DNA of 64,000 nucleotides from Streptomyces sp. NBC_01717 (GTDB lineage: Bacteria; Actinomycetota; Actinomycetes; Streptomycetales; Streptomycetaceae). This document shows positions 865 to 44,992 of this stretch, in pieces; the stretch's first letter is position 1, and each line of letters opens with the position of its first letter. The position numbers and the translations under genes are program-made. The stretch covers positions 7,068,501 to 7,132,500 of the forward strand of contig NZ_CP109178.1 in NCBI RefSeq assembly GCF_036248255.1, read 5' to 3'. The notes under the pieces were generated by a model. The model was not told where the DNA came from, did not search any database, and saw only the letters and a program-made list of their open reading frames with translations.

Positions 865-1060
865 GCGCCCTGGTTCGACGTGACCGGCGGCGAGAGTCTC
901 CTGGCTCCCGGATCCGCAGTTCCCCCGGCCTTCCAGCCCGCCTGCGCGAGCCGTGACTTCCGGTGTGGGGGACTGCTCCCCGGTGACAGTGGCGGGACCG
1001 CGCCGGATTCGCACCGGCTTCCTCTGCTGTCGCCGTAAATGGCTCCGGCAGTCCACCACG
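865..1060 (-). promoter_or_regulatory. Cobalamin (AdoCbl) riboswitch
   Basis: Read on the minus strand, 1022-980 carries the B12-box core: GAGGAAGCCGGTGCGAATCC, then GCGCGGTCCCGCCACTGT. It is followed by GGAAGTCACGGCTC near 965-950 and by GAGCCAGGAGACTCTC near 910-895, the usual 3' half of the aptamer. It lies 5' of cobD in the right orientation, so high cobalamin is expected to switch cobD off. The outer limits are approximate because the 5' half is less conserved. The stretch between about 745 and 1188 holds only this leader, the short upstream ORF and a terminator. Confidence 0.9.
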
Positions 1061-31706: not shown

Positions 31707-33343
31707 GCGCCGCCCACGCCGCGTACCCCACCGTCCAGCTCGCCGCCGAAGGCGCGAGCGAGCACCGGCCGCTGATCATCACGCTCTTCGCCTGCTTCGT
31801 CGTCGCCACACTGTTCATCACCGTGTGGGCAGGCCGACAGACCAAGGACGCCTCCGACTTCTACGCGGGCGGCCGCCAGTTCACCGGTTTCCAGAACGGC
31901 CTCGCGGTCTCCGGCGACTACATGTCCGCCGCGTCGTTCCTCGGTATCGCGGGCGCCATCGCGCTCTTCGGCTACGACGGCTTCCTGTACTCCATCGGCT
32001 TCCTCGTCGCCTGGCTCGTCGCCCTGCTGCTGGTTGCGGAACCGCTGCGGAACTCCGGCCGCTACACGATGGGCGACGTCCTCGCGTACCGCATGCGCCA
32101 GCGCCCGGTCCGTACCGCGGCGGGCGCCTCCACCATCGTCGTCTCGATCTTCTACCTGCTCGCGCAGATGGCGGGCGCCGGTGTGCTCGTCTCGCTGCTG
32201 CTCGGTATCACCAGCGACGGCGGCAAGGTCGCCATCGTCGCCCTGGTCGGTCTGCTGATGATCGTGTACGTCACCATCGGCGGCATGAAGGGCACCACCT
32301 GGGTGCAGATGGTCAAGGCCGTCCTGCTCATCGCGGGCACCGTGCTCATCACCTTCCTGATCCTGCTGAAGTTCCACTTCAACCTCTCCGACCTGCTCGG
32401 CACCGCGGCGGAGAACAGCGGCAAGGGCAAGGCGTTCCTGGAGCCCGGACTCAAGTACGGCGCCACCAGCACGTCGAAGCTGGACTTCATCTCGCTCGGT
32501 ATCGCCCTCGTCCTCGGCACCGCCGGGCTCCCGCACATCCTGATCCGCTTCTACACCGTGCCGACCGCCAAGGCCGCCCGTAAGTCGGTGAACTGGGCGA
32601 TCGGCATCATCGGCGCCTTCTACCTGATGACGATCGTGCTCGGCTTCGGCGCCGCGGCGATCCTCAAGCCCGGCGACATCATCGCCTCGAACAAGGCGGG
32701 CAACACGGCGGCCCCGCTGGCCGCCCTGGAGATCGGCGGCGGCTCCGGCTCCACCGGCGGTGCAATCCTGCTCGCCGTCATCTCCGCGGTCGCCTTCGCC
32801 ACCATCCTCGCCGTCGTCGCCGGCCTGACCCTGGCGTCCTCGTCGTCCTTCGCGCACGACATCTACGCCAACGTCATCCGCAAGGGCAGGGCCACCGAGA
32901 AGGAAGAGGTCCGCGCGGCGAAGTGGGCGACCGTTGCCATCGGCATCGTCTCCATCGGCCTCGGCGCCCTCGCGCGCGATCTGAACGTGGCCGGACTGGT
33001 CGCCCTCGCCTTCGCGGTCGCCGCCTCGGCGAACCTGCCGACCATCCTGTACAGCCTGTTCTGGAAGCGGTTCACCACCCAGGGCGCCCTCTGGTCGATC
33101 TACGGTGGTCTGGCCTCGTCCGTCCTGCTGGTGCTGTTCTCCCCGGTCGTCTCCTCCAAGCCCACGTCGATGTTCCCCGACGCCGACTTCGCCTGGTTCC
33201 CGCTGGAGAACCCGGGCCTGATCTCCATCCCGCTGGGCTTCCTGCTCGGCTGGCTCGGCTCCCTGCTCTCGAAGGAGGAGCCGGACAAGGGCAAGTACGC
33301 CGAGCTGGAGGTCAAGTCCCTCACCGGCGTCGGCGCCCACTGA
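31703..33343 (+). CDS. actP: Solute:cation (acetate) symporter, ActP-like
   Basis: A 546-residue SSS-family transporter with about 13 helices. Motifs are DFYAGGRQFTGFQNGLAVSG and DYMSAASFLGIAGAIALFGY near residues 50-92, AGLPHILIRFYTVP, and RSVNWAIGIIGAFYLMTIVL-like sequence near 300. These are close to ActP cation/acetate symporters, although other monocarboxylates are possible. Encoded right after DUF485 and followed by a 12-bp hairpin. Confidence 0.88.
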   Translation: MSAAHAAYPTVQLAAEGASEHRPLIITLFACFVVATLFITVWAGRQTKDASDFYAGGRQFTGFQNGLAVSGDYMSAASFLGIAGAIALFGYDGFLYSIGFLVAWLVALLLVAEPLRNSGRYTMGDVLAYRMRQRPVRTAAGASTIVVSIFYLLAQMAGAGVLVSLLLGITSDGGKVAIVALVGLLMIVYVTIGGMKGTTWVQMVKAVLLIAGTVLITFLILLKFHFNLSDLLGTAAENSGKGKAFLEPGLKYGATSTSKLDFISLGIALVLGTAGLPHILIRFYTVPTAKAARKSVNWAIGIIGAFYLMTIVLGFGAAAILKPGDIIASNKAGNTAAPLAALEIGGGSGSTGGAILLAVISAVAFATILAVVAGLTLASSSSFAHDIYANVIRKGRATEKEEVRAAKWATVAIGIVSIGLGALARDLNVAGLVALAFAVAASANLPTILYSLFWKRFTTQGALWSIYGGLASSVLLVLFSPVVSSKPTSMFPDADFAWFPLENPGLISIPLGFLLGWLGSLLSKEEPDKGKYAELEVKSLTGVGAH

Positions 33344-33382
33344 CGAGAAGGAATTCGCGTCACACACCGCGCGGATCCCGTG

Positions 33383-33410
33383 GCCGCGTCGTAGAGTCCT
33401 ACGACGCGGC
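33383..33410 (+). terminator. Terminator after the symporter gene
   Basis: gccgcgtcgtag (33383-33394) pairs perfectly with ctacgacgcggc (33399-33410), loop agtc. It lies 40 bases after the stop and upstream of moaA. Confidence 0.8.
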
Positions 33411-33516
33411 TACGCCGCCCCTCGTGTCAAACGGGCCACCTCCCTGTCACAGGTGTCGCGTAGTCTCGGGAGAGTCAGATCCGCAACCGGGGATGCACCG
33501 GGGGAGGGGGCCCACC

Positions 33517-34506
33517 ATGCTCATCGACACCTACGATCGGGTCGCCACCGACCTGCGCGTCTCACTGACCGACCGCTGCAATCTGCGGTGCACGTACTGC
33601 ATGCCCGAAGAAGGCCTGCAGTGGCTGGCCAAGCCGGACCTGCTCAGCGACGACGAGATCGTCCGGCTCGTCCGTATCGCCGTGACCCAGCTCGGGATCA
33701 ACGAGGTCCGCTTCACCGGCGGTGAGCCGCTGCTGCGCCCTGGCCTCGTCTCCATCGTCGAACAGTGCGCGGCACTGACCCCCCGGCCGAAGATGTCGCT
33801 CACCACCAACGGCATCGGGCTGAAGCGCACGGCGGCCGCCCTCAAGGCCGCCGGCCTCGACCGGGTCAACGTCTCGCTGGACACCCTGCGCCCCGACGTC
33901 TTCAAGACCCTCACCCGCCGTGACCGCCACCACGACGTACTGGCAGGCCTCGAAGCCGCCCGCGACGCCGGCCTCACCCCGGTCAAGGTCAACACCGTCC
34001 TGATGCCCGGGCTCAACGGCGACGAAGCCCCCGACCTGCTCGCCTGGGCCGTGGAACACGGTTACGAGCTCCGCTTCATCGAGCAGATGCCGCTCGACGC
34101 CCAGCACGGCTGGAAGCGCGACGGCATGATCACGGCAGGCGACATACTCAGCTCCCTGCGCACCCGCTTCACGCTCTCGGCCGAGGGCGACGGCGAGCGC
34201 GGCTCAGCCCCCGCCGAGCGCTGGCTCGTCGACGGCGGACCCCACCGTGTCGGTGTCATCGCCTCCGTCACCCGCCCGTTCTGCCGGGCCTGCGACCGCA
34301 CCCGGCTCACCGCCGACGGCCAGGTGCGGACCTGCCTGTTCGCCCGCGAGGAGACCGATCTGCGCGGCGCGCTGCGCTCCGGGGCCCCGGACGAGGAGAT
34401 CGCCCGGATCTGGCGGCTCGCGATGTGGGGGAAGAAGGCCGGATCCGGTCTGGACGACCCGTCCTTCCTGCAGCCCGACCGCCCGATGTCGGCGATCGGC
34501 GGCTGA
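33517..34506 (+). CDS. moaA: GTP 3',8-cyclase MoaA
   Basis: A 329-residue radical SAM enzyme of molybdenum cofactor synthesis. The N-terminal cluster motif is CNLRCTYCMPEEG; RFTGGEPLLRPG binds SAM. The C-terminal second cluster comes from CRACDRTRLTADGQVRTC, and the chain ends in the obligatory Gly-Gly. Start ATG 33517 has gggagg about 8 bases upstream. Immediately after its stop codon lies a copy of a mobile-type repeat. Confidence 0.95.
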   Translation: MLIDTYDRVATDLRVSLTDRCNLRCTYCMPEEGLQWLAKPDLLSDDEIVRLVRIAVTQLGINEVRFTGGEPLLRPGLVSIVEQCAALTPRPKMSLTTNGIGLKRTAAALKAAGLDRVNVSLDTLRPDVFKTLTRRDRHHDVLAGLEAARDAGLTPVKVNTVLMPGLNGDEAPDLLAWAVEHGYELRFIEQMPLDAQHGWKRDGMITAGDILSSLRTRFTLSAEGDGERGSAPAERWLVDGGPHRVGVIASVTRPFCRACDRTRLTADGQVRTCLFAREETDLRGALRSGAPDEEIARIWRLAMWGKKAGSGLDDPSFLQPDRPMSAIGG

Positions 34507-34702
34507 GCGCCGTCCCGTAATCCCTGGCGGGCGCACGACGACAGCTACGGCACCTCTCCCCCGTAGCCTCAACGGCACGGGGGTACCCCCTCCGTTGTCG
34601 GAACGCCCGAATACGCCCGGTACGAGGACGCTCCTCCGCCTTGCGATGCACCGCATCCGACGCCGCGCGCCGATCCACCAGGGGTTACGGGACAGCCCTT
34701 AG
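34507..34702 (+). mobile_element. MITE-like element, copy 1 (with internal insertion)
   Basis: About 195 bases without a coding frame, nearly identical over most of its length to 42672-42839. Its right end (34678-34702) is ccaggggttacgggacagcc plus cttag, and its left end keeps gtcccgtaatccctggcggg from 34512, with the outermost bases altered. Relative to copy 2 it carries about 28 extra bases (near 34558-34600) that form a hairpin around acggcacggggg. It begins right after the moaA stop. Confidence 0.7.
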
Positions 34703-34755
34703 GGTCTTTCGTTTGGATCAGGCGCGACCTCAGCATGATCCAAACGAAAGGCCCT
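34701..34755. repeat. Second palindromic element abutting the MITE copy
   Basis: agggtctttcgtttggatca (34701-34720) and tgatccaaacgaaaggccct (34736-34755) form a 20-bp stem with one G-T pair and a 15-base loop. It starts at the last bases of the preceding element and is also bounded by TA (34700-34701 and 34755-34756). It may be a relic of another IS or a terminator. Confidence 0.65.
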
Positions 34756-34765
34756 AGGACGGGCG

Positions 34766-35026
34766 TCAGTCCCCGGAGGCCGAAGACTCCCACTCCGCCA
34801 GCGTCACGACATCCTTCAGAAAACCGCGCACCCCCAGGAACGAGGAGAGATGTTCCCGGTGCTCGTCGCAGGCCAGCCAGGTCTTACGGCGCTCCGGGGT
34901 GTGCAGCTTCGGGTTGTTCCAGGCCAGCACCCATACGGCGGCCGCACGGCAGCCCTTGGCGGAACAGATCGGCGCGGCGGAAGCAGCGCTCTCGGCGGCA
35001 TTTTCGGGGGAGTCCGGGAAGTTCAC
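34766..35026 (-). CDS. Small Cys/His hypothetical protein
   Basis: An 86-residue protein with CSAKGCRAAAVWVLAWNNPK and TWLACDEHREHLSSFLGVRG, a Cys/His pattern that could bind zinc. Related Streptomyces proteins are conserved but uncharacterised. The start GTG 35026 (VNFPDSPENAAES) is my choice since the upstream frame is Arg-rich and repeat-like; a better ribosome site is not obvious. Function unknown. Confidence 0.65.
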   Translation of the reverse strand: MNFPDSPENAAESAASAAPICSAKGCRAAAVWVLAWNNPKLHTPERRKTWLACDEHREHLSSFLGVRGFLKDVVTLAEWESSASGD

Positions 35027-35066
35027 GGACTCAACCCTAGGCCAGCCGCGAGGTCGGCCCACTGAC

Positions 35067-35149
35067 GCATCCCCTGCCGGAGAAAAGCGACGCCGAGCAG
35101 CCACGGGGGGAGCTGCCCGGCGTCGGTCTGTCGCTCCGACGGGGGATGC
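35067..35149 (-). terminator. Structured region with minus-strand terminator
   Basis: On the minus strand, 35124-35112 (GACGCCGGGCAGC) pairs with 35101-35089 with one mismatch and is followed by GCTTTTCT, an intrinsic terminator. An outer helix, gcatcccc (35067-35074) with ggggatgc (35142-35149), encloses it. It follows the DUF3099 gene by about 120 bases and precedes the 86-residue gene, so it may be a terminator of the former or an attenuator in the leader of the latter. Confidence 0.6.
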
Positions 35150-35246
35150 GGAGCGCGTAGGAAGTATGTCACGCGGACCGGGGTGCGGTGCACCTGAACT
35201 TCATGATTGATCTGAGCTTTTCTTGAGGATTCGGCGTGCCGTGAGC

Positions 35247-35609
35247 TCAGCTGTGCTCATGCGGATCCGGGGCGCTGTGGGCGCGGTCGGAGTCCGCCGG
35301 ACCGGCCGGCGGGGCGGCCTCGAGCGCCGGTCTGGCGGGTGGCGGCACGAAGGTCGAGGGCAGTGAAGGAGTGTTCTCCCGGCCCGCGTTGGCGAGGACC
35401 ACCGCGACGTACGGGAGCAGCGCACCCAGCGCGAGCGCCACGATGGCCACAGGCTTCTCGATGTTCCACAGCACGGCGGCCAGGACCACCGAAACCGTCC
35501 GTACGGACATCGAGATCACATAGCGTCGCTGCCTGCCGCGGACATCGTCCGCGAGGCTCTGCCGGGCTCCCGTGATCCGGAAGACCTCCGCACCACTCTG
35601 CTTCCGCAT
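35247..35609 (-). CDS. DUF3099 domain membrane protein
   Basis: A 120-residue protein. The DUF3099 core is EVFRITGARQSLADDVRGRQ followed by RRYVISMSVRTVSVVLAAVL and two transmembrane helices (about 30-48 and 53-75). The C-terminal 45 residues are Pro/Ala-rich. ATG 35609 was chosen because the domain starts just after it. Function unknown; the family is widespread in actinobacteria. Confidence 0.8.
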   Translation of the reverse strand: MRKQSGAEVFRITGARQSLADDVRGRQRRYVISMSVRTVSVVLAAVLWNIEKPVAIVALALGALLPYVAVVLANAGRENTPSLPSTFVPPPARPALEAAPPAGPADSDRAHSAPDPHEHS

Positions 35610-35811
35610 CACGTTCCCGTCACCCTTCCCCTGGCTCTTCACGAGCCGTTCCACGGTACGCCCGGCATCCGGAGGCATCGAGACCGGGGCACGCAGTATT
35701 CGTGCACATCAGCACACTCATGGCACGTATGGACCTGTCCGACATGCGTCGTACGGCCTGTGCGCCAAGACTTGCGCACATGCGCGACACCGCGCCGCAC
35801 CAGGAGGCGAC

Positions 35812-36090
35812 ATGAGTTGGCTGTGGGCAATCATCGTGGGTCTGGTCCTCGGCCTGATCGCGAAGGCGATCCTGCCGGGCAAGCAGCAGATCCCACTCTG
35901 GCTGACAACCATTTTCGGCATCATCGGCAGCATCATCGGCAATGCCGTCGCGACGTGGATCGGCGTCAACGAGACCAGAGGCATCGACTGGACGCGCCAT
36001 CTGCTCCAGCTGATCGGCGCCGTGGTCATCGTCGGCGTCGGCGACATGCTCTGGACATCGATGCGCGGTACCAGAAAGCAGAAGGCCTGA
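35812..36090 (+). CDS. GlsB/YeaQ/YmgE family small membrane protein
   Basis: A 92-residue protein with three hydrophobic helices. MSWLWAIIVGLVLGLIAKAI, then TIFGIIGSIIGNAVATWIG and QLIGAVVIVGVGDMLW are the classic transglycosylase-associated (PF04226) pattern of the family. Ribosome site aggagg is 6 bases before ATG. Linked to stress in other bacteria, but molecular function is unknown. Confidence 0.85.
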   Translation: MSWLWAIIVGLVLGLIAKAILPGKQQIPLWLTTIFGIIGSIIGNAVATWIGVNETRGIDWTRHLLQLIGAVVIVGVGDMLWTSMRGTRKQKA

Positions 36091-36125
36091 GCGCAGGCGC
36101 GGCCGCAGGACGTCCGACGCGGCGA

Positions 36126-36156
36126 CGGCCGGGCACGCATGTCGCGTGCCCGGCCG
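36126..36156. terminator. Convergent terminator hairpin
   Basis: cggccgggcacgc (36126-36138) pairs with gcgtgcccggccg (36144-36156), 13 bp, loop atgtc, between the YeaQ-like gene and tyrS, which face each other. Confidence 0.8.
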
Positions 36157-36177
36157 CCGTGTGCTGTCCGCTGCCGG

Positions 36178-37446
36178 TCAGCCGGCCGTGACCTCGATGG
36201 CCGCGAGGTTCTTCTTGCCCCGGCGCAGCACCAGCCAGCGCCCGTGCAGCAGCTCCTCGCGGGCCGGTGCGGCCTCGCCGTCCACGACCTTGACGTTGTT
36301 CACGTAGGCGCCGCCCTCCTTGACCGTACGGCGGGCCCCCGACTTGCTCGGCGCCAGACCGACCTCCACCAGGAGGTCCACCAGCGGACCCAGCTCGGTG
36401 ACCTCGGCGTGCGGCACCTCGGAGAGCGCCGCGCTCAGCGTCGCCTCGTCCAGATCGCCCAGCTCACCCTGGCCGAACAGTGCCTTCGAGGCGGCGATGA
36501 CCGACGCGCACTGCTCGGCGCCGTGCACCAGCGTCGTCAGCTCCTCCGCCAGCGCCCGCTGCGCCGTCCTGGCCTGGGGACGCTCCTCGGTGAGCTTCTC
36601 CAGCTCCTCCAGCTCGGCGCGGCTCCTGAAGCTGAGGATGCGCATGTACGGGGAGATGTCGCGGTCGTCCACGTTCAGCCAGAACTGGTAGAACGCGTAC
36701 GGCGTCGTCATCTCCGGGTCGAGCCAGACGGCCCCGCTCTCGGACTTGCCGAACTTGGTACCGTCCGCCTTCACCATCAGCGGCGTGGCCAGTGCGTGCA
36801 CCTCGGCGCCCGGCTCCAGGCGGTGGATCAGGTCGATGCCCGCGGTGAGGTTGCCCCACTGGTCGCTGCCGCCCTGCTGGAGGGTGCAGCCGTAGCGCCG
36901 GTACAGCTCCAGGAAGTCCATGCCCTGCAGCAACTGGTAGCTGAACTCCGTGTAGCTGATGCCCTCCTGGGACTCCAGCCGACGGGCGACCGAGTCCTTG
37001 GTCAGCATCTTGTTGACCCGGAAGTGCTTGCCGATGTCGCGCAGGAACTCGATCGCGGACATGCCCGCGGTCCAGTCCAGGTTGTTCACCATGACCGCGG
37101 CGTTCGCGCCCTCGAAGGAGAGGTACGGCTCGATCTGGGAACGCAGTCGCGTCACCCAGTTCGCGACCGTCTCCGGGTCGTTCAGCGTCCGCTCGGCCGT
37201 CGGCCGCGGGTCACCGATCTGGCCGGTGGCCCCGCCGACCAGGGCGAGCGGCCGGTGCCCGGCCAGCTGCAGCCGACGCACGGTGAGCACCTGCACCAGG
37301 TGGCCCACGTGCAGACTCGCCGCGGTCGGGTCGAAACCGCAATAGAACGTGACGGGACCGTCCGCGAGAGCCTTGCGCAATGCGTCCTCGTCAGTGGACT
37401 GGGCGAACAGCCCGCGCCACTTCAGCTCGTCGACGATCTCCGTCAC
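36178..37446 (-). CDS. tyrS: Tyrosyl-tRNA synthetase
   Basis: A 422-residue class I synthetase. The HIGH-like motif is [13 protein letters not shown], the KMSKS-like loop is [17 protein letters not shown], and FYCGFDPTA lies at the active site. The C-terminal S4 domain (about 355-420) has [20 protein letters not shown] and [19 protein letters not shown] 37446 has agggag 10 bases upstream. Only 51 bases separate it from the tldE stop, leaving no room for a T-box. Confidence 0.95.
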
Positions 37447-37497
37447 TGTTCTGTGTCTCCCTGTTACGTGTGCTGATCTGCCACGGTCAGTCTAGGG

Positions 37498-38892
37498 TCA
37501 CACCCCGAGGCTGACCGAACTCATATTGAAGTCCGGGATCCGCAGCGCAGGCATCGCGGCCCGGGTGAACCAGTCGCCCCACTCGCGCGGCAGCGTCTTC
37601 TCGGTGCGGCCCGCCTCGACGGCCCGCGACAGAAGATCGACCGGCGACTCGTTGAACCGGAAGTTGTTCACCTCGCCGACCACCTCGCCGTCCTCCACCA
37701 GATACACCCCGTCCCGGGTGAGTCCGGTCAGCAGCAGCGTCGCCGGATCGACCTCCCGGATGTACCAGAGGCAGGTCAGCAGCAGGGCCCGGCCGCTCGT
37801 CGCCGCCACCATCTCGTCCAGCGACCGCTCACCACCGCCGTCGAGCACCAGGTTGTCGATCGCCGGAGCCACCGGCAGCCCGGTCAGTCCGGCCGTGTGC
37901 CGGGTGGTCGTCAGACGGTCCAGCCGGCCGTCCCGGATCCAGTCGGTCGACGACAGAGGCAGCCCGTTGTCGAAGACGGAAGCGCCGTCCCCTGAGGAGT
38001 GGGCGATCACGAACGGTGCGGACTCGAGCCCGGGCGCGTTCGGGTCGCTGCGCAGGGTCAGCGGCAGCTCGGACAGCGTCTCGCCGAGCCGGGTGCCACC
38101 CCCCGGCTTGGAGAAGACCGTCCGGCCCTCGGCGGCGTCCCGGGCCGTCGACGACCACAGCTGGTAGATCAGCAGATCGGCCACGGCGGTGGGCGGCAGC
38201 AGCGTCTCGTACCGCCCGGCGGGCAGCTCGATACGGCGCTCCGCCCAGCCCAGCCGCTGCGCCAGCTCCGCGTCCAGCTCGGCCGGGTCGACATCCTTGA
38301 AGTCCCTGGTGGCCCGGCCCGCCCAGGCGGATCGCGACCGGTCGGGGGACTTGGCGTTCAGCTCCAGCGTCCCGTTCGGCTGGTCGTGGCGCAGCCGCAG
38401 CCCCGTCGACGTGCCCAGATACGTCGAGGTCAGCTGGTGGTGCGCGAAGCCGTACAGCTCGCGGCCGCCGGCCCGGGCGCGGGCGAAGGCGTCACCGAGC
38501 GCCGGGGCGAACTCCGCGAACACCTCGGAACTCGTCTCGGCCGGGGCATCCGTGAAATCGGGGGACGAGGGCACGCCGGTGACCAGCGGCTGCGCGTCCT
38601 CGGCGGGTCCTGCCCCGCGCGCGGCGGCCTCGGCGGCCCGCACCAGCGGTTCCAGGTCGTCGGCGGTGACCGCGGAACGGGACACCACACCGGACGCCGC
38701 GCCCTCGGCGCCGTCCACCGTCGCGATGACCGTCAGGGTCCGCCCCCGGGTCACCCCGTTCGTGGTGAGCGCGTTGCCCGCCCAGCGCAGATTGGCGGAG
38801 GAGTCCTCGTCGGCGATGACCACACAGCCGTCGGCGGTGGACAGTTCGAGCGCGCGCTCGACGATCTCGTACGGCTTGCTGACGCGGCTCAT
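37498..38892 (-). CDS. TldD/PmbA family protein, TldE-like subunit
   Basis: A 464-residue protein of PF01523. It starts MSRVSKPYEIVERALELS and carries the C-terminal family part EMVAATSGRALLLTCLWYIR, VDPATLLLTGLTRDGVYLVE and NFRFNESPVDLLSRA. It lacks the HExxxH zinc motif of its partner, as TldE subunits do. Its ATG overlaps the TldD stop by 4 bases. Together TldD and TldE form a protease that trims unstructured peptides and RiPP leaders. Confidence 0.88.
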   Translation of the reverse strand: MSRVSKPYEIVERALELSTADGCVVIADEDSSANLRWAGNALTTNGVTRGRTLTVIATVDGAEGAASGVVSRSAVTADDLEPLVRAAEAAARGAGPAEDAQPLVTGVPSSPDFTDAPAETSSEVFAEFAPALGDAFARARAGGRELYGFAHHQLTSTYLGTSTGLRLRHDQPNGTLELNAKSPDRSRSAWAGRATRDFKDVDPAELDAELAQRLGWAERRIELPAGRYETLLPPTAVADLLIYQLWSSTARDAAEGRTVFSKPGGGTRLGETLSELPLTLRSDPNAPGLESAPFVIAHSSGDGASVFDNGLPLSSTDWIRDGRLDRLTTTRHTAGLTGLPVAPAIDNLVLDGGGERSLDEMVAATSGRALLLTCLWYIREVDPATLLLTGLTRDGVYLVEDGEVVGEVNNFRFNESPVDLLSRAVEAGRTEKTLPREWGDWFTRAAMPALRIPDFNMSSVSLGV

Positions 38893-40412
38893 CGGCCCGC
38901 CTCCTGCGTCGTGTTGAGGATGTTCACGCCTCGGAAGAGGGCGGAGGGGCAGCCGTGCGAAACGGCGGCGACCTGGCCCGGCTGGGCCTTGCCGCAGTTG
39001 AAGGCGCCGCCCAGGACGTACGTCTGCGGGCCGCCGACCTTCTCCATCGAGCCCCAGAAGTCCGTCGTCGTCGCCTGGTATGCGACATCGCGCAGCTGGC
39101 CGGCCAGCTTGCCGTTCTCGATGCGGAAGAACCGTTGCCCGGTGAACTGGAAGTTGTAGCGCTGCATGTCGATCGACCAGGACCGGTCGCCGACCACATA
39201 GATGCCGCGCTCCACGCCGCCGATCAGATCCTCCGTGGACAGCCCGCCCGGATCCGGCTGCAGCGACACGTTCGCCATCCGCTGTACGGGGACGTGGCCC
39301 GGCGAGTCGGCGTACGCACACCCGTTGGACCGGCCGAGGCCCGTCAGCTTCGCGATCCTCCGGTCGAGCTGGTAGCCGACCAGCGTCCCGTCCTTGATCA
39401 GGTCCCAGGACTGGCCCTCGACACCCTCGTCGTCGTAACCGATGGTCGCGAGACCGTGCTCGGCGGTGCGGTCGCCCGTCACATTCATCACGGGCGAGCC
39501 GTACGCCAGCTTGCCCAGCTGGTCGAAGGTGGCGAACGAGGTCCCGGCGTACGCCGCCTCGTACCCCAGCGCCCGGTCCAGTTCGGTGGCATGGCCGATC
39601 GACTCATGGATCGTCAGCCAGAGATTCGACGGATCGACGACCAGGTCGTACGTCCCCGCCTCGACGCTCGGCGCCCGCATCTTCTCGGCGAGCAGCCCCG
39701 GGATCCGCTCCAGCTCGGAGTCCCAGTCCCAGCCGGTGCCCGTGAGGTACTCCCAGCCGCGGCCCACCGGCGGCGCGATGGTCCGCATCGAGTCGAACTC
39801 GCCGGTCGTCCCGTCCACGGCGACGGCTGTGAACTGCGGATGCAGCCGCACCCGCTGCTGGGTGGTGACGGTGCCCGCCGTGTCCGCATAGAACTTGTTC
39901 TCGTGGACGGTCATGAGCGAGGCGTCCACATGCGCGACACCGTCCGCGCCGAGGAGCCGACTGCTCCACTCGGCCAGCAGCCCCGCCTTCTCCTCGTCCG
40001 GTACGGAGAACGGGTCGACGTCGTAGGCCGACACCCAGGTCCGCTCGCCGTGCACCGGCTCGTCCGCCAGCTCCACCCGCTCGTCGGACCCGGCCGCCGC
40101 GATCACCTTGGCCGACAGCTTCGCCATGGCGACCGCCTGGGACGCGACCTTCGCCGCCGCGTCCATGGTCAGATCGACGCCGGACGCGAACCCCCACGCC
40201 CCGCCGTGCACCACACGCACCGCGTACCCGAGATCGGTGGTGTCCGAAGTCCCGGCGGGCCGGGCGTCCCGCAACCGCCAGGACGCACTGCGCACCCGCT
40301 CGAAGCGGAAGTCCGCATGGACGGCGCCCAGCGCCCGGGCCCGGGCGAGCGCCGCGTCGGCGAGGGCCCGTAGTGGCAGGGCCAGGAATGACTGATCTAC
40401 CTCATGGGGCAC
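38889..40412 (-). CDS. tldD: TldD-like metallopeptidase subunit
   Basis: A 507-residue protein with the TldD zinc motif in LTIHESIGHATELDRALGYE (HExxxH) and GLATIGYDDEGVEGQSWDLI plus NVSLQPDPGGLSTEDLIGGV downstream. The C-terminal Cys near GGAFNCGKAQPGQ is a likely metal ligand in the family. I chose GTG 40412 (VPHEVDQSFLALP) with gaagggg upstream over a longer frame. Operon with the TldE-like gene. Confidence 0.9.
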   Translation of the reverse strand: MPHEVDQSFLALPLRALADAALARARALGAVHADFRFERVRSASWRLRDARPAGTSDTTDLGYAVRVVHGGAWGFASGVDLTMDAAAKVASQAVAMAKLSAKVIAAAGSDERVELADEPVHGERTWVSAYDVDPFSVPDEEKAGLLAEWSSRLLGADGVAHVDASLMTVHENKFYADTAGTVTTQQRVRLHPQFTAVAVDGTTGEFDSMRTIAPPVGRGWEYLTGTGWDWDSELERIPGLLAEKMRAPSVEAGTYDLVVDPSNLWLTIHESIGHATELDRALGYEAAYAGTSFATFDQLGKLAYGSPVMNVTGDRTAEHGLATIGYDDEGVEGQSWDLIKDGTLVGYQLDRRIAKLTGLGRSNGCAYADSPGHVPVQRMANVSLQPDPGGLSTEDLIGGVERGIYVVGDRSWSIDMQRYNFQFTGQRFFRIENGKLAGQLRDVAYQATTTDFWGSMEKVGGPQTYVLGGAFNCGKAQPGQVAAVSHGCPSALFRGVNILNTTQEAGR

Positions 40413-40531
40413 GTCGGCTTTCCCCTTCTCGACCTGTGCGATGTGTCTCCGCAGTGAATCATGCGGTGCGAGCCCGTCCGGGGCCTCTGGTTTTCCCGTA
40501 TTTTTCCGAAACGGATCCAGCGGCGCGGGGC

Positions 40532-40560
40532 GAGGCACTGTAGGAACCCCACAGTGCCTC
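40532..40560. terminator. 10-bp hairpin in the tldD-fabG intergenic region
   Basis: gaggcactgt (40532-40541) and acagtgcctc (40551-40560) are exact complements, loop of 9. It sits between two divergent starts, so a regulatory role (operator or leader structure) is as likely as termination. Confidence 0.45.
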
Positions 40561-40600
40561 GCGGAAGCCACTGTCAGGGGCCGATTCCCCGCGGAGCGCC

Positions 40601-40638
40601 TGGTACCGATAGGTTTTCGAGGTACCAGACCGCTATCG
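40601..40638 (+). promoter_or_regulatory. Interdigitated inverted repeats upstream of fabG
   Basis: TGGTACC (40601-40607) and GGTACCA (40621-40627) form one inverted repeat, while CGATAG (40607-40612) and CTATCG (40633-40638) form another, interleaved with it. They end 13 bases before the fabG TTG, a typical position for an operator of fatty acid synthesis genes. No regulator is known from this window. Confidence 0.45.
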
Positions 40639-40651
40639 AAAGGGTGATCCG

Positions 40652-41371
40652 TTGAGCCGCTCGGTTCTCGTCACCGGAGGAAACCGGGGCATCGGCCTCG
40701 CCATCGCCCGCGCTTTCGCCGACAACGGCGACAAGGTCGCGATCACGTACCGCTCGGGCGAGCCGCCCCAGGCCCTCACCGAGGCCGGCGTTCTGGCCGT
40801 CCGGTGCGACATCACCGACGGCGAGCAGGTGGAGCAGGCCTACAAGGAGATCGAGGAGAAGCACGGTCCGGTCGAGGTGCTGGTCGCCAACGCCGGTATC
40901 ACCAAGGACCAGTTGCTGATGCGGATGTCCGAGGAGGACTTCACGTCCGTACTCGACACCAACCTCACCGGCACCTTCCGGGTCGTCAAGCGCGCCAACC
41001 GCGCCATGCTGCGCGCCAAGAAGGGCCGCGTCGTCCTCATCTCCTCCGTCGTCGGTCTCCTCGGCTCGGCGGGGCAGGCCAACTACGCCGCCTCCAAGGC
41101 CGGTCTGGTCGGCTTCGCCCGGTCCCTGGCGCGCGAGCTCGGCTCGCGGAACATCACTTTCAACGTCGTCGCGCCCGGCTTTGTCGACACCGACATGACC
41201 CAGGTGCTCACCGAGGAGCAGCGCAAGGGCATCGTCGCCCAGGTGCCGCTGGCCCGTTACGCGCGGCCCGAGGAGATCGCCGCCGCGGTGCGCTTCCTCG
41301 CCTCCGACGACGCGTCGTACATCACTGGAGCCGTCATCCCCGTTGACGGCGGATTGGGCATGGGTCACTGA
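40652..41371 (+). CDS. fabG: 3-oxoacyl-ACP reductase FabG
   Basis: A 239-residue SDR. TGGNRGIGLAIARAF binds NADPH; NAGITKDQLLMRM, ISSVVGLLGSAGQANYAASK (Ser, Tyr, Lys catalytic) and DTDMTQVLTEEQR are FabG-specific, as is the ending ITGAVIPVDGGLGMGH. The start is a TTG with aaaggg 7 bases upstream. It is followed after 5 bases by inhA, the usual actinobacterial fabG-inhA pair of type II fatty acid synthesis. Confidence 0.93.
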   Translation: MSRSVLVTGGNRGIGLAIARAFADNGDKVAITYRSGEPPQALTEAGVLAVRCDITDGEQVEQAYKEIEEKHGPVEVLVANAGITKDQLLMRMSEEDFTSVLDTNLTGTFRVVKRANRAMLRAKKGRVVLISSVVGLLGSAGQANYAASKAGLVGFARSLARELGSRNITFNVVAPGFVDTDMTQVLTEEQRKGIVAQVPLARYARPEEIAAAVRFLASDDASYITGAVIPVDGGLGMGH

Positions 41372-41376
41372 CCACC

Positions 41377-42144
41377 ATGATCGGAATTCTCGACGGCAAG
41401 CGCATCCTCATCACCGGTGTGCTGATGGAGTCGTCCATCGCCTTCCACACCGCCAAGGTGGCCCAGGAGCAGGGTGCCGAAGTCATCCTGACCGCATTCC
41501 CCCGGCCCACGCTGACGGAGCGCATCGCCAAGAAGCTGCCCAAGCCCGCCAAGGTCATCGAGCTGGACGTGACCAACACCGAGCACCTGGACCGGCTCGA
41601 AGGCCTGGTCCGTGAGGAGCTCGGTTCGCTGGACGGCGTCGTCCACTCCATCGGCTTCGCGCCGCAGGACGCGCTCGGCGGCAACTTCCTCAACACCCCG
41701 TTCGAGTCCGTCGCCACCGCGATGCACGTCTCGGCGTTCTCGCTGAAGTCGCTCGCCATGGCCTGCAAGCCGCTGATGAGCGAGGGCGGCTCGATCGTCG
41801 GCCTCACCTTCGACGCACAGTTCGCCTGGCCGCAGTACGACTGGATGGGCCCGGCCAAGGCCGCGCTGGAGGCCACCTCCCGTTACCTCGCCCGCGACCT
41901 GGGCAAGGAGGACATCCGCTGCAACCTGATCTCGGCGGGTCCGATCGGCTCGATGGCCGCGAAGTCCATCCCGGGCTTCTCGGAGCTCGCGGACGTCTGG
42001 AACACCCGTTCCCCGCTCGCCTGGAACATGGCCGACCCGGAGCCGGCCGGCCGTGGCGTCGTCGCGCTGCTGTCGGACTTCTTCCCGAAGACCACGGGCG
42101 AGATCATCCACGTCGACGGTGGCGTGCACATGATGGGTGCCTGA
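41377..42144 (+). CDS. inhA: Enoyl-ACP reductase, InhA/FabI type
   Basis: A 255-residue NADH-dependent SDR-type reductase: GILDGKRILITGVLMESSIA at the N-terminus, VVHSIGFAPQDALGG, and the Tyr-x6-Lys catalytic pair in QYDWMGPAKAALEATSRYLA. NLISAGPIGSMAAKSI follows. The InhA lineage reduces trans-2-enoyl-ACP in elongation. It ends with the conserved GEIIHVDGGVHMMGA and is followed by a terminator. Confidence 0.93.
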   Translation: MIGILDGKRILITGVLMESSIAFHTAKVAQEQGAEVILTAFPRPTLTERIAKKLPKPAKVIELDVTNTEHLDRLEGLVREELGSLDGVVHSIGFAPQDALGGNFLNTPFESVATAMHVSAFSLKSLAMACKPLMSEGGSIVGLTFDAQFAWPQYDWMGPAKAALEATSRYLARDLGKEDIRCNLISAGPIGSMAAKSIPGFSELADVWNTRSPLAWNMADPEPAGRGVVALLSDFFPKTTGEIIHVDGGVHMMGA

Positions 42145-42165
42145 CCTCGTAGAACCCTGTACGAA

Positions 42166-42205
42166 ACGGCCGCGTACCACCTCCGAGCAGGTGGTGCGCG
42201 GCCGT
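42166..42205 (+). terminator. Terminator of the fabG-inhA operon
   Basis: acggccgcg (42166-42174) with cgcggccgt (42197-42205), continued inside by accacct/aggtggt, giving a stem of 16 bp with one mismatch around a ccgagc loop, 21 bases after the stop. Confidence 0.8.
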
Positions 42206-42312
42206 CGTGCGTCCCCGCCCGGCCGTTCGCCGCTCAGGTCGAAAAGATGGTCGATGCACCGCAGAATGTGGTGGAACCGGACTTTTGGTCAGGCTGCGGG
42301 GAGGAGGTCGCT

Positions 42313-42675
42313 GTGCGCCCCATACGTCGCCGAACCTGGGCCCTGCTGGCGGCCTCGGTCGCCGTCGCCGCACTTGTCGTCCCCCTGGGCATATCCGGCC
42401 TGGGGTGGCCCGGGGCGTCCGCGCCGACCGCCCCGGTCCCGGACCCGCACGGCGCCGACTGCCGTACGTCGGTCCAGGGCTCCTGGGTGGTTGCCTACTG
42501 CCACAACCCGTACCCCACCAACGACCGGGTACAGCTGCACACCGAATGCGACCGCTGGTGGGACGTGGACGCGGACGGCATACCCGTCGACGTCGCCCCC
42601 GGGCAGACGGTACGGCTCGACGATCGCTGCTGGAAGGAGGTCGCCTCCGTCTGGATCACCCACCAACGGGTCTAA
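42313..42675 (+). CDS. Small secreted or membrane-anchored Cys-containing protein
   Basis: A 120-residue protein: RRRTWALLAASVAVAALVVP is a signal peptide or anchor, after which four Cys (DCRTSV, YCHNPY, ECDRWW, RCWKE) could form two disulfides. GTG 42313 has gaggagg (42301-42307) 5 bases upstream. The TAA stop lies inside the terminal repeat of the adjacent MITE copy, so the present C-terminus may have been created by the insertion. Function unknown. Confidence 0.65.
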   Translation: MRPIRRRTWALLAASVAVAALVVPLGISGLGWPGASAPTAPVPDPHGADCRTSVQGSWVVAYCHNPYPTNDRVQLHTECDRWWDVDADGIPVDVAPGQTVRLDDRCWKEVASVWITHQRV

Positions 42676-42839
42676 GGGCTGTCCCGAAATCCCTGGCGGG
42701 CGCGCGACGACAGCTACGGCACCTCGCCGCGTTGTCGGAACGCCCGAATACGCCCACTATGAGGACGCCCCTCCGCCTTGCGATGCACCGCATCTGACGC
42801 CGCGCGCTTATCCACCAGGGATTACGGGACAGCCCTTAG
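42672..42839 (+). mobile_element. MITE-like element, copy 2 (complete ends)
   Basis: A 168-bp element with 25-base terminal inverted repeats, 42672-42696 (ctaagggctgtcccgaaatc...) and 42815-42839, differing at one position. The outer bases are C-TA-A and T-TA-G, consistent with insertion at CTAG with TA duplication, as in some IS5-group elements. The interior has no coding frame. It matches 34507-34702 in the same orientation. Confidence 0.75.
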
Positions 42840-42879
42840 ACGAAGGAATCCCTCTTCCGGCTCTTCCGGAACATTCGGA

Positions 42880-43554
42880 TCAGACCCGGTCCACCAGGCA
42901 GCTGAGCGCATGACTCGCGGCCTCGGTGGCCGCCGTCTCCGCGTCACCGGCCCGGATCGCCTCGACCAGCCGCGCATGGTCCATATGGTTCTCCGGCCGT
43001 AGCTCGTGCCCGACATCGACCCGCAGATAGTCGCGCAGCAGATCCCCCAGGTCGGCGTAGAGGCCCGTCAGTACGTCATTGTGCGAGGCGGCGACCACGG
43101 CCAGGTGCAGCGTCGCATCCGCAGCCACGAACGCCTCGGCGTCGCCCGCGGCCCAGGTCTCCTCGCGACGCGCCATGAGCGCGTCGAGCTGCTTCAGGTC
43201 CCGCTCGGTGCGGCGGGCGGCGGCCAGCCGGGCCGCTGACGACTCCAGCGTCGACCGCAGCTCGGCGACATGATGCGGGTCGGCGGAAGCGAACCGGCGG
43301 TGCATCACGCCGGCCAGCTCACTGGTGGCGACGACATATGTGCCCGACCCCTGCCGGATGTCCAGCAGCCCGTTGTGCGCGAGCGCGCGCACCGCCTCGC
43401 GGACGGTGTTACGGGCCACGCTCAGCTGCTCCACCAGCTCGGGTTCGGTCGGAATCCGCGAACCGACGGGCCACTCGCCCGAGGTGATCTGATTCCTCAG
43501 CTGTGCGATCACCTGGTCGGCGAGTGCCGACCGTCGCGGGGACGTCAAAGCCAT
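42880..43554 (-). CDS. GntR/FadR-family transcriptional regulator (FCD domain)
   Basis: A 224-residue protein. The winged helix has RSALADQVIAQLRNQITSGE and SVARNTVREAVRALAHNGLL, then RQGSGTYVV (residues 6-77). The FCD ligand domain has ELRSTLESSAARLAAARRT and AADATLHLAVVAASHNDVL with His residues for metal. Divergent from the MFS gene, whose promoter contains a matching palindrome, so it likely controls that gene. Confidence 0.9.
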   Translation of the reverse strand: MALTSPRRSALADQVIAQLRNQITSGEWPVGSRIPTEPELVEQLSVARNTVREAVRALAHNGLLDIRQGSGTYVVATSELAGVMHRRFASADPHHVAELRSTLESSAARLAAARRTERDLKQLDALMARREETWAAGDAEAFVAADATLHLAVVAASHNDVLTGLYADLGDLLRDYLRVDVGHELRPENHMDHARLVEAIRAGDAETAATEAASHALSCLVDRV

Positions 43555-43637
43555 GATGCTCCTTGCTCGGATCCTCGGGGCTTCCGGATTCTCCGGTTCC
43601 CGGGCTTCCCGGAGGTTTCCGAAGGCTCTCGGACGAG

Positions 43638-43668
43638 TGGACAACCAATCATCCCATGATTCTATGAT
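43638..43668 (+). promoter_or_regulatory. MFS promoter with palindromic operator in the spacer
   Basis: TGGACA (43638-43643) and TATGAT (43663-43668) form -35 and -10, with 19 bases between. The spacer contains the perfect palindrome AATCATCCCATGATT (43647-43661). The -10 is 7 bases from ATG 43676, so the transcript would be leaderless. The layout suits repression by the GntR protein encoded opposite. Confidence 0.55.
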
Positions 43669-43675
43669 GGACCTC

Positions 43676-44992
43676 ATGCCCGAAGACGAGACCCAGCCCC
43701 AGACCCGGACCGCTACCCGGCCCCAGAGTCCGCACACCGCCACGGCGACCGCCTCCGCCATGGACTCCCCGGCACCGCAGACCGCGCAGACCGCCTCCGG
43801 CCCGACCCCCTGGGCGCTCCGTCTGGTCGCCGTCGGTCTCGTCCTCACCGCGCTCAACCTCCGCCCCGCCATCACCAGCCTCGGCGCCCTTCTCGAAGAG
43901 GTACGGGACGGGCTGCACATGAGCGGCAGCGTCGCCGGTGTCCTCACCTCCGTGCCGCCGCTCTGTTTCGCGGTCTTCGGCATCATGGCGCCGCGTCTCG
44001 CCCGCCGCTTCGGCCCCGGTGCGGTCGTCTGCGCAGGGATGGTCGCCATCGCGGCCGGTCTGGTGATCCGGCCGTTCGTCGGCTCCACGGCCGGGTTCCT
44101 CGCCGCCAGTGCCCTCGCCCTGATGGGCATAGCCGTCAGCAACATCCTGATGCCGGTGATCGTCAAGCGCTGGTTCCCGGACCGGGTCGGCTCCATGACC
44201 GGCCTCTACTCGATGGCGCTGGCCCTCGGCACCGCGCTCGCCGCAGCCGTCACCGTGCCCATGACCGATGCGCTCGGTGGCAGTTGGAAGGCCGGCCTCG
44301 GAGTCTGGGCCGTGCTCGCCGCAGTCGCGGTCCTGCCCTGGATCCCGCTGATGCGGGAAGGTCGCGGCGCCCCCGGACACGCCACGGCCCAGCAGCACGG
44401 TGATGCCCCGGCACTGCGGATCACCCGCAGCCGCACGGCCTGGGGCCTCGCCTGCTTCTTCGGTCTGCAGGCCACCGCTGCGTACATCGCCATGGGGTGG
44501 ATGCCGCAGATCTTCCGCGACGCCGGGGTCTCGGCAGGCACGGCGGGCGTCCTGCTCGCCGTGACCATGGCCATGGGTGTGCCACTCGCCTTCGTCATCC
44601 CGCGGGTCGCCGCCCGGATGAAGAACCAGGGCCCGATCGTCGTCTTCCTCTGCGCCTGCGGCCTCGTCGGCTACGCGGGCCTCTACTTCGCACCGGCCGC
44701 CGGCGCCTGGGCCTGGGCGCTGCTCCTCGGCATTGCCAACTGTGCCTTCCCGCTCGCCCTCACCATGATCGGCATGCGGTCCCGCAGCGGCGCCGGAGTG
44801 GTCCGGCTGTCCGCGTTCGCCCAGTCCACCGGCTATCTGATCTCGATCCCCGGTCCGCTGCTCGTCGGCGTGCTGTACCAGCACAGCGGCGGCTGGGGAC
44901 TGCCGATCGCGCTGATGGCGGGCCTGATGGTGCCGCAGATGGTGGCGGGGATCCTGGCCGGGCGGGACCGGACGATCGAGGACGAATGCTGA
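43676..44992 (+). CDS. MFS transporter, CynX/NimT-like
   Basis: A 438-residue 12-helix transporter. The polar N-terminus (about 40 residues) is followed by LNLRPAITSLGALLEEVRDG, the CynX/NimT signature, and by FGIMAPRLARRFGPGAVVCA. Second half: FFGLQATAAYIAMGWMPQIF. ATG 43676 is preferred to two nearby upstream ATGs because it follows the -10 at leaderless spacing. Substrate unknown (cyanate and nitroimidazole exporters are relatives). Confidence 0.88.
   Translation: MPEDETQPQTRTATRPQSPHTATATASAMDSPAPQTAQTASGPTPWALRLVAVGLVLTALNLRPAITSLGALLEEVRDGLHMSGSVAGVLTSVPPLCFAVFGIMAPRLARRFGPGAVVCAGMVAIAAGLVIRPFVGSTAGFLAASALALMGIAVSNILMPVIVKRWFPDRVGSMTGLYSMALALGTALAAAVTVPMTDALGGSWKAGLGVWAVLAAVAVLPWIPLMREGRGAPGHATAQQHGDAPALRITRSRTAWGLACFFGLQATAAYIAMGWMPQIFRDAGVSAGTAGVLLAVTMAMGVPLAFVIPRVAARMKNQGPIVVFLCACGLVGYAGLYFAPAAGAWAWALLLGIANCAFPLALTMIGMRSRSGAGVVRLSAFAQSTGYLISIPGPLLVGVLYQHSGGWGLPIALMAGLMVPQMVAGILAGRDRTIEDEC

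Follow-up and report, generated by a model that had tools for sequence, protein, structure and literature searches.

Miniature inverted-repeat transposable elements (MITEs) are usually seen as leftovers of one insertion sequence (IS), in which the ends are kept and the middle drifts. REPINs and REP sequences are mobilized by Y1 (RAYT) enzymes, and the IS110 bridge RNA and IS200/IS605 omega RNA are structured RNAs serving a protein encoded by their own mobile element. Passages of two reviews describe the bacterial MITEs, Correia/NEMIS, ERIC, YPAL, and others, as small elements that have inverted ends and TA at their termini and give stem-loop transcripts; for one kind, action through RNase III has been proposed (PMC2229807, PMC10969869). 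REP units are given as 20–40 bp long and tagged GTAG or CGTC in excerpts of two further papers (PMC3733652, PMC3116915), and sections of a structured-motif study with Streptomyces avermitilis among its genomes report 250 mobile or repeat candidates, including MRSC-65-2, which occurs in diverse phyla and carries a UYCCGG repeat (PMC11109978). Here we analyze a stretch of 64,000 nucleotides from Streptomyces sp. NBC_01717 (assembly GCF_036248255.1, contig NZ_CP109178.1, positions 7,068,501 to 7,132,500; hereafter the window), which holds two repeats that are copies of a small, gene-less, MITE-like mobile element scattered through Streptomyces genomes. In this element the usual MITE picture appears to be reversed, with the middle kept and the ends changing.

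Like IS5-family insertion sequences (HTH_Tnp_4, DDE_Tnp), one of which lies in the same genome and has the same outer 15 bp, the element has TA at CTAG-like sites; unlike them, it carries no transposase, and its core does not occur in the IS. It resembles the IS110 and IS200/IS605 systems in that a structured RNA, here a predicted one, would lie inside a mobile element, and differs from them in having no element-encoded protein and in having DDE-type ends. As in the bacterial MITEs of the review passages, the unit is shorter than ~200 bp, encodes no protein, has inverted ends and TA termini, occurs in many copies, and is accompanied by an IS with like ends; unlike those MITEs it is GC-rich rather than AT-rich, and one covarying, strand-favored core recurs across dissimilar end types, where the passages describe single-family stem-loops and no covarying core common to different end types (PMC2229807, PMC10969869). 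REPINs and REP sequences are likewise abundant palindromes outside genes, and the 162-bp units with TA duplication are set apart from the REP units, by anatomy, in what the excerpts say of them (PMC3733652, PMC3116915). The candidates of the structured-motif study, as its sections present them, are also structured, present in many copies per genome, and at times near a transposase gene; the element differs from MRSC-65-2, the one candidate compared, and its core motif may be among the 250 (PMC11109978). Streptomyces has zero mentions in the main text of the 2024 MITE review (PMC10969869), and the titles and abstract beginnings surveyed, with subscription papers mostly outside that survey, describe no such Streptomyces element. 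The element is ordinary in its movement and unusual in its conserved core.

The repeat, its core and its ends

An earlier note on this DNA, written from its letters, had reported two near-identical repeats in the same orientation and supposed that such an element could be abundant in related genomes. Both repeats are present. Copy 2, with its flanks C-TA...TA-G, occupies 42672..42839 (plus strand), the element proper being 42675-42836 (162 bp) by sequence and genome matches; 17 other same-strand matches in the genome span the full 1–168 of the copy 2 query. Its ends read CTAAGGGCTGTCCCGAAATCCCTGG and CTAAGGGCTGTCCCGTAATCCCTGG in the inward direction, and they are 25-bp inverted repeats with one mismatch and TA bounds, just as the note had described them; the left repeat (42672..42696, plus strand) includes the flanking CTA, and the right (42815..42839, minus strand) includes the flanking TAG and holds the mismatch. 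Copy 1, with flanks CTG...TAG, occupies 34503..34702 (plus strand; element proper ~34506-34699), and its left end has decayed (CTGAGCGCCG).

The expected abundance was borne out and goes far beyond what chance would give. At least 40 same-strand matches to the 168-bp copy (E 5e-83 to 2e-39), plus palindromic cross-hits, were found in the source genome of 10.2 Mb, a lower bound since 40 of 100 candidates were scored. The end motif AGGGCTGTCCCGNAA with at most one mismatch occurs 48+48 times, against 2+0 for its reversed control, and a structure model of the core gives 49 copies at E 0.01 or better. Among the matches listed, 3 of the 37 copies on contig C1 lie between 1.75 and 5.6 Mb, and the majority therefore lie towards the arms. 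Element DNA is matched at E 1e-10 by 79 of 150 genomes of the genus and by 57 records of a plasmid collection (56 Streptomyces and one Embleya), and the phage records searched with the element gave no match. With the covariance model, matches were obtained in 160 of 197 genomes of the order, representing five of six genera. A scan with a 21-base core pattern yielded at least 120 named loci, 80 of which were given in one comparison; 114 of the 120 lie in records labeled Streptomyces. The core pattern was also seen in records labeled Microtetraspora, Frankiaceae metagenome-assembled genome, and Actinacidiphila (L444, L392, L412, L437).

Many of the 150 genus genomes match only query positions ~26–142, between the end repeats. 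Reading 40 such places and scoring inverted flanks revealed one core between dissimilar terminal repeats, mostly beside CTAG. Examples of the alternative ends are GGTCCTGTCCGGTGGATC (L181), GGGGGTTTCGTTTGGATCAG (L185–187), GAGCGTGTTTGAGACCCCGC (L188–189), GGCCGTCTCTTTCGGATCTTG (L194–196), TGCTGTGACCGGAAAGGTT (L202–204), and GGGCGTGTCCGATGGGTCGG (L200–201); grouped by eye, they form at least five clearly unrelated groups, and those finishing in GGATC resemble one another. Typing of the 120 named loci gave 34 of type A, 30 of C, six of B, five of F, three each of D and G, two of K, one of J, and three others, with 19 lacking an end repeat by score and 14 lying too near a contig end. Two kinds of end occur within one genome in four cases (G012, G054, G056, and G069). 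In the source genome itself, five elements with ends of the form ...TTTCGTTTGGATC (L313–L317) match the core model at 26.6–52.1 bits; blastn sees no core in them, and four of the five reach E 0.01 genome-wide. Terminal repeats as the mark of a single family were rejected, the core being found with other ends. Across the order, these matches show a core that is conserved between ends that vary. The earlier note had overlooked this conserved, covarying structure and its independence of any one set of ends.

The ends may be exchanged when one element inserts next to or within another, as seen at 34700, or they may shift gradually along with the partner enzyme. At 34700..34757 a core-less palindrome with type-B ends (GGGTCTTTCGTTTGGATCA; inner part 34702-34754, 53 bp) adjoins copy 1 at a common TA. 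Core-less candidates measuring 41–67 bp between motif edges number three in the source genome (this one included), two in G012, one in G016, and two in G039 among the matches listed.

Fold, covariation and strand of the core

The core of copy 2 lies at 42697..42813 on the minus strand, where the covariance model scores 132.4 bits against 34.5 bits on the plus strand. The core of copy 1 (34563..34676, minus strand; 63.0 bits) is split by a C/G-rich hairpin insert containing GGGGGTACCCCC at 34559..34592 (bounds approximate), and copy 1 is longer than copy 2 because of this insert in its middle, a feature absent from the earlier note. In the alignment the same insert, or a shortened form, is present in L059, L062, and L066, and a different one, CCCCCAGG...GGTGCCCC, in L178–L180; these core inserts resemble an additional family of short hairpins that nest within the elements.

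For alignment, inserts, misplacement, or divergence led to the removal of 17 of the 105 distinct copies (14 loci and window copy 1). From the remaining 88, 48 cores with pairwise ungapped identity below 92% were taken and aligned on either strand. In these 48 diverse cores the middle 117 bp forms a single long, imperfect hairpin whose irregularities are constant: an A faces a G, three bases face one, and an internal loop reads GA/GACAA. In the minus-strand alignment 95.7% of 1964 cells pair, and 22 of the 41 pairs have changed on both sides. The covariation score is 0.264, beyond both the shuffled control (0.127, standard deviation 0.006; reached by 0 of 500 shuffles) and slid partners (at most 0.079); the shuffles ignore kinship and the structure was derived from the same sequences, and the margin over the slid control is large. 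Particular wobble pairs (G.U or U.G, in A3 columns) are kept, namely 23-106 in 47 of 48 sequences, 27-101 in 46, 14-117 in 42, and 28-100 in 39.

Judged from covariation and Rfam searches, it is very improbable that the core represents part of a protein gene or of a known RNA family. One frame is open across the element (open reading frame [ORF] 42137-42913), and a protein is annotated over the match in some plasmid records; set against this, covariation between two arms with indels in the loops fits no reading frame. In the window, no Rfam family passed its gathering cut-off over the element, and a relaxed search with copy 2 and eight other loci reached 8.8–23.3 bits against cut-offs of at least 40.

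A process that needs no selection on structure can also produce compensating changes: in quasi-palindrome correction by template switching, one arm is rewritten against the other. The element would then be an ordinary MITE whose core covaries through such correction alone, an account favored by the fact that the whole unit is one inverted repeat and that core-less and broken-core forms also move. We consider it quite unlikely, because correction should erase mismatches, yet specific wobbles, in 39–47 of 48 sequences, and internal loops are kept; one strand is favored; and the core outlasts the ends, although the ends are palindromic too.

The evidence on strand comes from base pairs and from folding energy. 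Counted in plus-strand letters, the ten pairs specific to the minus fold gave 265 A.C against 4 G.T, whereas the two specific to the plus fold gave 1 A.C against 34 G.T; the 33 pairs common to both folds gave 58 A.C against 27 G.T. Over all 45 pairs, 27 columns pointed to the minus strand and 8 to the plus, with 10 ties (p=0.002). The plus-strand fold taken alone had no asymmetry (61 G.T against 59 A.C). G.U against A.C cells stood at 320:30 and 440:30, ratios that partly reflect the structure having been chosen on that strand, and at 120:28 without the G.U-majority pairs. The minus strand folds more stably in 48 of 48 and 69 of 69 sequences, by a mean of 18–19 kcal/mol (observed 19.2). The minus strand is favored, with composition explaining part of the difference, and this preference fits RNA.

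Selection of the core as a single-stranded DNA hairpin of one strand, through recognition by a strand-specific nuclease or through replication, would account for a strand preference as well, since G.T pairs are tolerated in DNA hairpins, and the many copies without orientation bias to genes suit an element acting at the DNA level. We think this unlikely: copies have no clear bias in replication direction (20 against 17 with the origin assumed at 4.7 or 5.1 Mb, and 21 against 16 at 4.3 Mb), and TA duplication with inverted ends indicates a DDE enzyme acting on double strands. The core is predicted to work as a structured RNA, with the DNA hairpin the less likely form.

Insertion sequence, CTAG target and gene 3′ ends

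The earlier note had proposed comparing the ends with those of IS5/IS427-group elements and looking for TA target duplications and empty sites, and shared ends, TA duplications, and empty sites were all found. An intact IS5-type IS lies in the source genome at L051:3630-4505 and has its outer 15 bp in common with the element. It encodes a 255-aa protein with HTH_Tnp_4, DDE_Tnp_1, and DDE_Tnp_4 domains, ends in CTAAGGGCTGTCCCGTAA and CTAAGGCTTGTCCCGTAA, and carries CTA-AGGGCTGTCCCGTAA and CTA-AGGCTTGTCCCGTAA at those ends. From its domains, ends, and CTAG target we take it to be IS5 family, IS427-like; IS427-like elements insert at CTAG-like sites with TA duplication. The same kind of end lies near the transposase in many of 30 loci that hold relatives of the L051 protein in other genomes. 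Comparison of ends suggests that an L051-type enzyme could move the element. A search for partners of the other end types, with PF13359 in 12 genomes, 10 of which had matches, led to 30 inspected DDE_Tnp_4 loci; five of these had type-A ends (L261, L268, L277, L279, and L280), and at L254, L265, and L267 ends of other types were matched singly, without a paired end.

An IS1182-type parent was considered and rejected, as 0 of 29 fetched relatives (L072–L100) of a DUF772 protein were flanked by paired element ends; L076 had one exact end motif, far downstream, and the other matches were chance-like. In L063 (C2:344500-350000) an IS1182-like relic (DUF772) adjoins a 29-bp remnant of an element end, which is taken as accidental adjacency. 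A composite-like arrangement was seen at L454:1725-4574, where two inverted type-C ends stand 2.85 kb apart with chromosomal genes inside (part of an ADP-ribosylglycohydrolase and an S-Me-THD protein); none of the five ORFs tested there matched a Pfam transposase.

Terminal inverted repeats are detectable in many other copies of the source genome and decayed in some. Of its 43 elements, 10 failed to reach both ends, and among the 33 two-ended copies TA stands on both sides in 13 and the flanking dinucleotides are equal in 17. CTAG or CTAA is found at both ends in 48 of 87 named copies with detectable ends. In copy 2 both ends start C-TA-AGGGCTGTCCCG when read inwards, and the TA pair (42673..42674 on the left, 42837..42838 on the right) corresponds to a former CTAG. 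The site of copy 2 is empty in nine of nine fetched relatives, in which both convergent flanking genes are present without the element; these relatives were picked because both flanks lay near each other, and G029 and G070, with 1.3–2.2 kb between the flanks, were left out. In one relative, G057 (L238), GGGCTAGA stands at the stop of the copy 2 upstream gene, which ends C-TAG and has no element; insertion into a C-TAG of this kind changes the stop codon from TAG to TAA, the stop found in the window. Of eight orthologs of the gene upstream of the L007 element, three finish in C-TAG at this position or close to it. There is good support for insertion at CTAG. Neither of the outcomes that the earlier note had named as fatal to its reading occurred: the repeat is not confined to two copies with no IS sharing its ends, nor is it conserved at the same place in all relatives, the nine fetched for copy 2 being empty.

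The note had also observed that both window copies directly follow a stop codon and proposed that they may have been selected as 3′ ends or terminators. The coincidence is real: the stop falls exactly on the junction in 12 of the 43 elements of the source genome (5 left, 7 right), and window copy 2 makes a thirteenth, lying outside the 12 because its short upstream gene fell below the gene score. In part it is a plain effect of the CTAG target. A CTAG target predicts TAA at the junction, and four of the 12 stops there are TAA. CTAG occurs 17 times in the window, against ~173 expected from base composition and 22.7 from trinucleotides, and four of the 17 sites are gene stops; because CTAG is rare and these sites are so often stops, stop-specific targeting is unnecessary. 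Beyond the target effect, gene 3′ ends and convergent gaps are favored. In a context count of the 85 of 120 named loci with 700 bp on both sides, using genes called by a crude codon score and 98 CTAG sites of the same loci as control, 92 gene ends facing the element were 3′ and 38 were 5′ (control 61 and 87; p=1e-6), and 25 arrangements were convergent against 4 divergent (control 6 and 24; p=3e-7). The copies of the source genome face 29 3′ and 11 5′ gene ends (p=6e-4 against the same control), with four convergent and one divergent.

These counts bear on whether selection maintains the element as a bidirectional terminator of transcription or a 3′-end stabilizer. Gene 3′ ends face the copies far above control CTAG sites, convergent gaps predominate, and a plus-strand transcript of all of copy 2 has a predicted folding energy of −94.3 kcal/mol (z −8.3), all as expected of such a role. 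The same pattern is explained equally by loss of promoter-near insertions, which is the simplest cause; a hairpin serving only as a terminator needs no conservation of core sequence or of internal loops, and no preference for one strand; orientation bias is absent; and no T run follows either window hairpin. Selection as a terminator therefore seems doubtful to us, and a tolerated or useful role of the copies at 3′ ends is possible.

Of the neighboring genes in the window, the one upstream of copy 1 (32923..34506, plus strand) encodes a MoaA-like protein with Radical SAM and Mob_synth_C domains, and its TGA stop (34504-34506) overlaps the left junction of the element. The gene upstream of copy 2 (42247..42675, plus strand) encodes 142 aa without a Pfam match and has its TAA stop formed at the insertion junction, from the left TA and the next base; downstream, a convergent gene (42880..44196, minus strand) encodes a regulator with GntR and FCD Pfam domains. 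The statement that no transposase is present holds for the intervals between either copy and its neighbor genes and for the flanking genes tested, the rest of the window genes being outside that check; copy 2, at 162 bp, is itself too short for a transposase gene and well under the ~600 bp expected of MITEs. Elsewhere in the window a Cobalamin riboswitch lies at 895-1023 (minus strand, 72.2 bits).

A proposed model: a conserved RNA core in units moved in trans

The explanation that we favor, and hold to be somewhat probable, is a superfamily of non-autonomous, MITE-like units in Streptomyces and its relatives, built of a core plus ends, in which an IS5-type enzyme moves the units and the core is kept as a folded RNA. 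The transposase would recognize the outer ~15 bp and move the unit in trans into CTAG, with TA duplication. Insertions near promoters are probably lost, so that the surviving copies would stand at gene 3′ ends, CTAG being rare and often at stop codons. A folded minus-strand transcript of the core would aid the long-term survival of the element or its tolerance by the host, probably through a protein that binds its conserved wobble pairs and internal loops, and the ends would come to match whichever insertion sequence is active. The core should pay in the long run, because useless filler is not expected to covary or to outlast the ends.

A number of observations weigh against this explanation. 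With respect to the partner, the element and the IS5-type IS have only ~15 outer bp in common; the core model found nothing inside the IS of 30 loci, its single hit being a neighboring element, which means that the core did not arise by deletion from those elements, and no internal sequence derived from the IS was recognized. No autonomous element for the other end types was found at the 30 DDE_Tnp_4 loci, and a search for wide pairs of eight end types returned one (L454) in 480 sequences (2.06 Mb, partly overlapping). With respect to the target, the flanking dinucleotides differ in 16 of the 33 two-ended copies, and eight of the 12 junction stops are TGA rather than the TAA that CTAG predicts; later mutation, a different target dinucleotide, or creation of a new stop by the insertion could each account for these. 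With respect to the core, 37 of the 197 genomes of the order have no covariance-model hit. Core-less type-A palindromes exist (L060:1894-1952 and L065:1507-1561), as do those of type B, and long broken-core forms (196–208 bp, flank-inclusive) have multiplied to six of the 33 two-ended copies of the source genome; the core is therefore dispensable for movement in cis. With respect to strand, the column test on the common pairs is weak (16 minus against 7 plus, 10 ties; p=0.09), and shuffled sequences also favor the minus strand, by a mean of 8.1 kcal/mol (standard deviation 3.9). Finally, copies have no orientation bias relative to tandem neighbors (11 sense and 12 antisense at named loci; 2 and 4 in the source genome), which argues against a simple role in the 3′ untranslated region of the host gene itself.

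A bolder version, which we put forward tentatively and rate below an even chance, is that the units follow a strategy like that of short interspersed nuclear elements in the form of a DNA transposon. A conserved noncoding RNA would be the cargo, taking on the ends of different insertion sequences in succession and securing either spread or harmless insertion at gene ends in Streptomyces and related genera.

A CTAG target gives a simple reason for repeats at stop codons in GC-rich genomes, since TAA remains where the element has entered C-TAG. With 49 model hits in one genome, the elements are numerous enough to affect the 3′ ends of many genes and to cause errors in annotation. If the middle is indeed what is kept while the ends change, MITEs can carry functional RNA, and the purpose of a MITE core would become testable in tractable laboratory streptomycetes.

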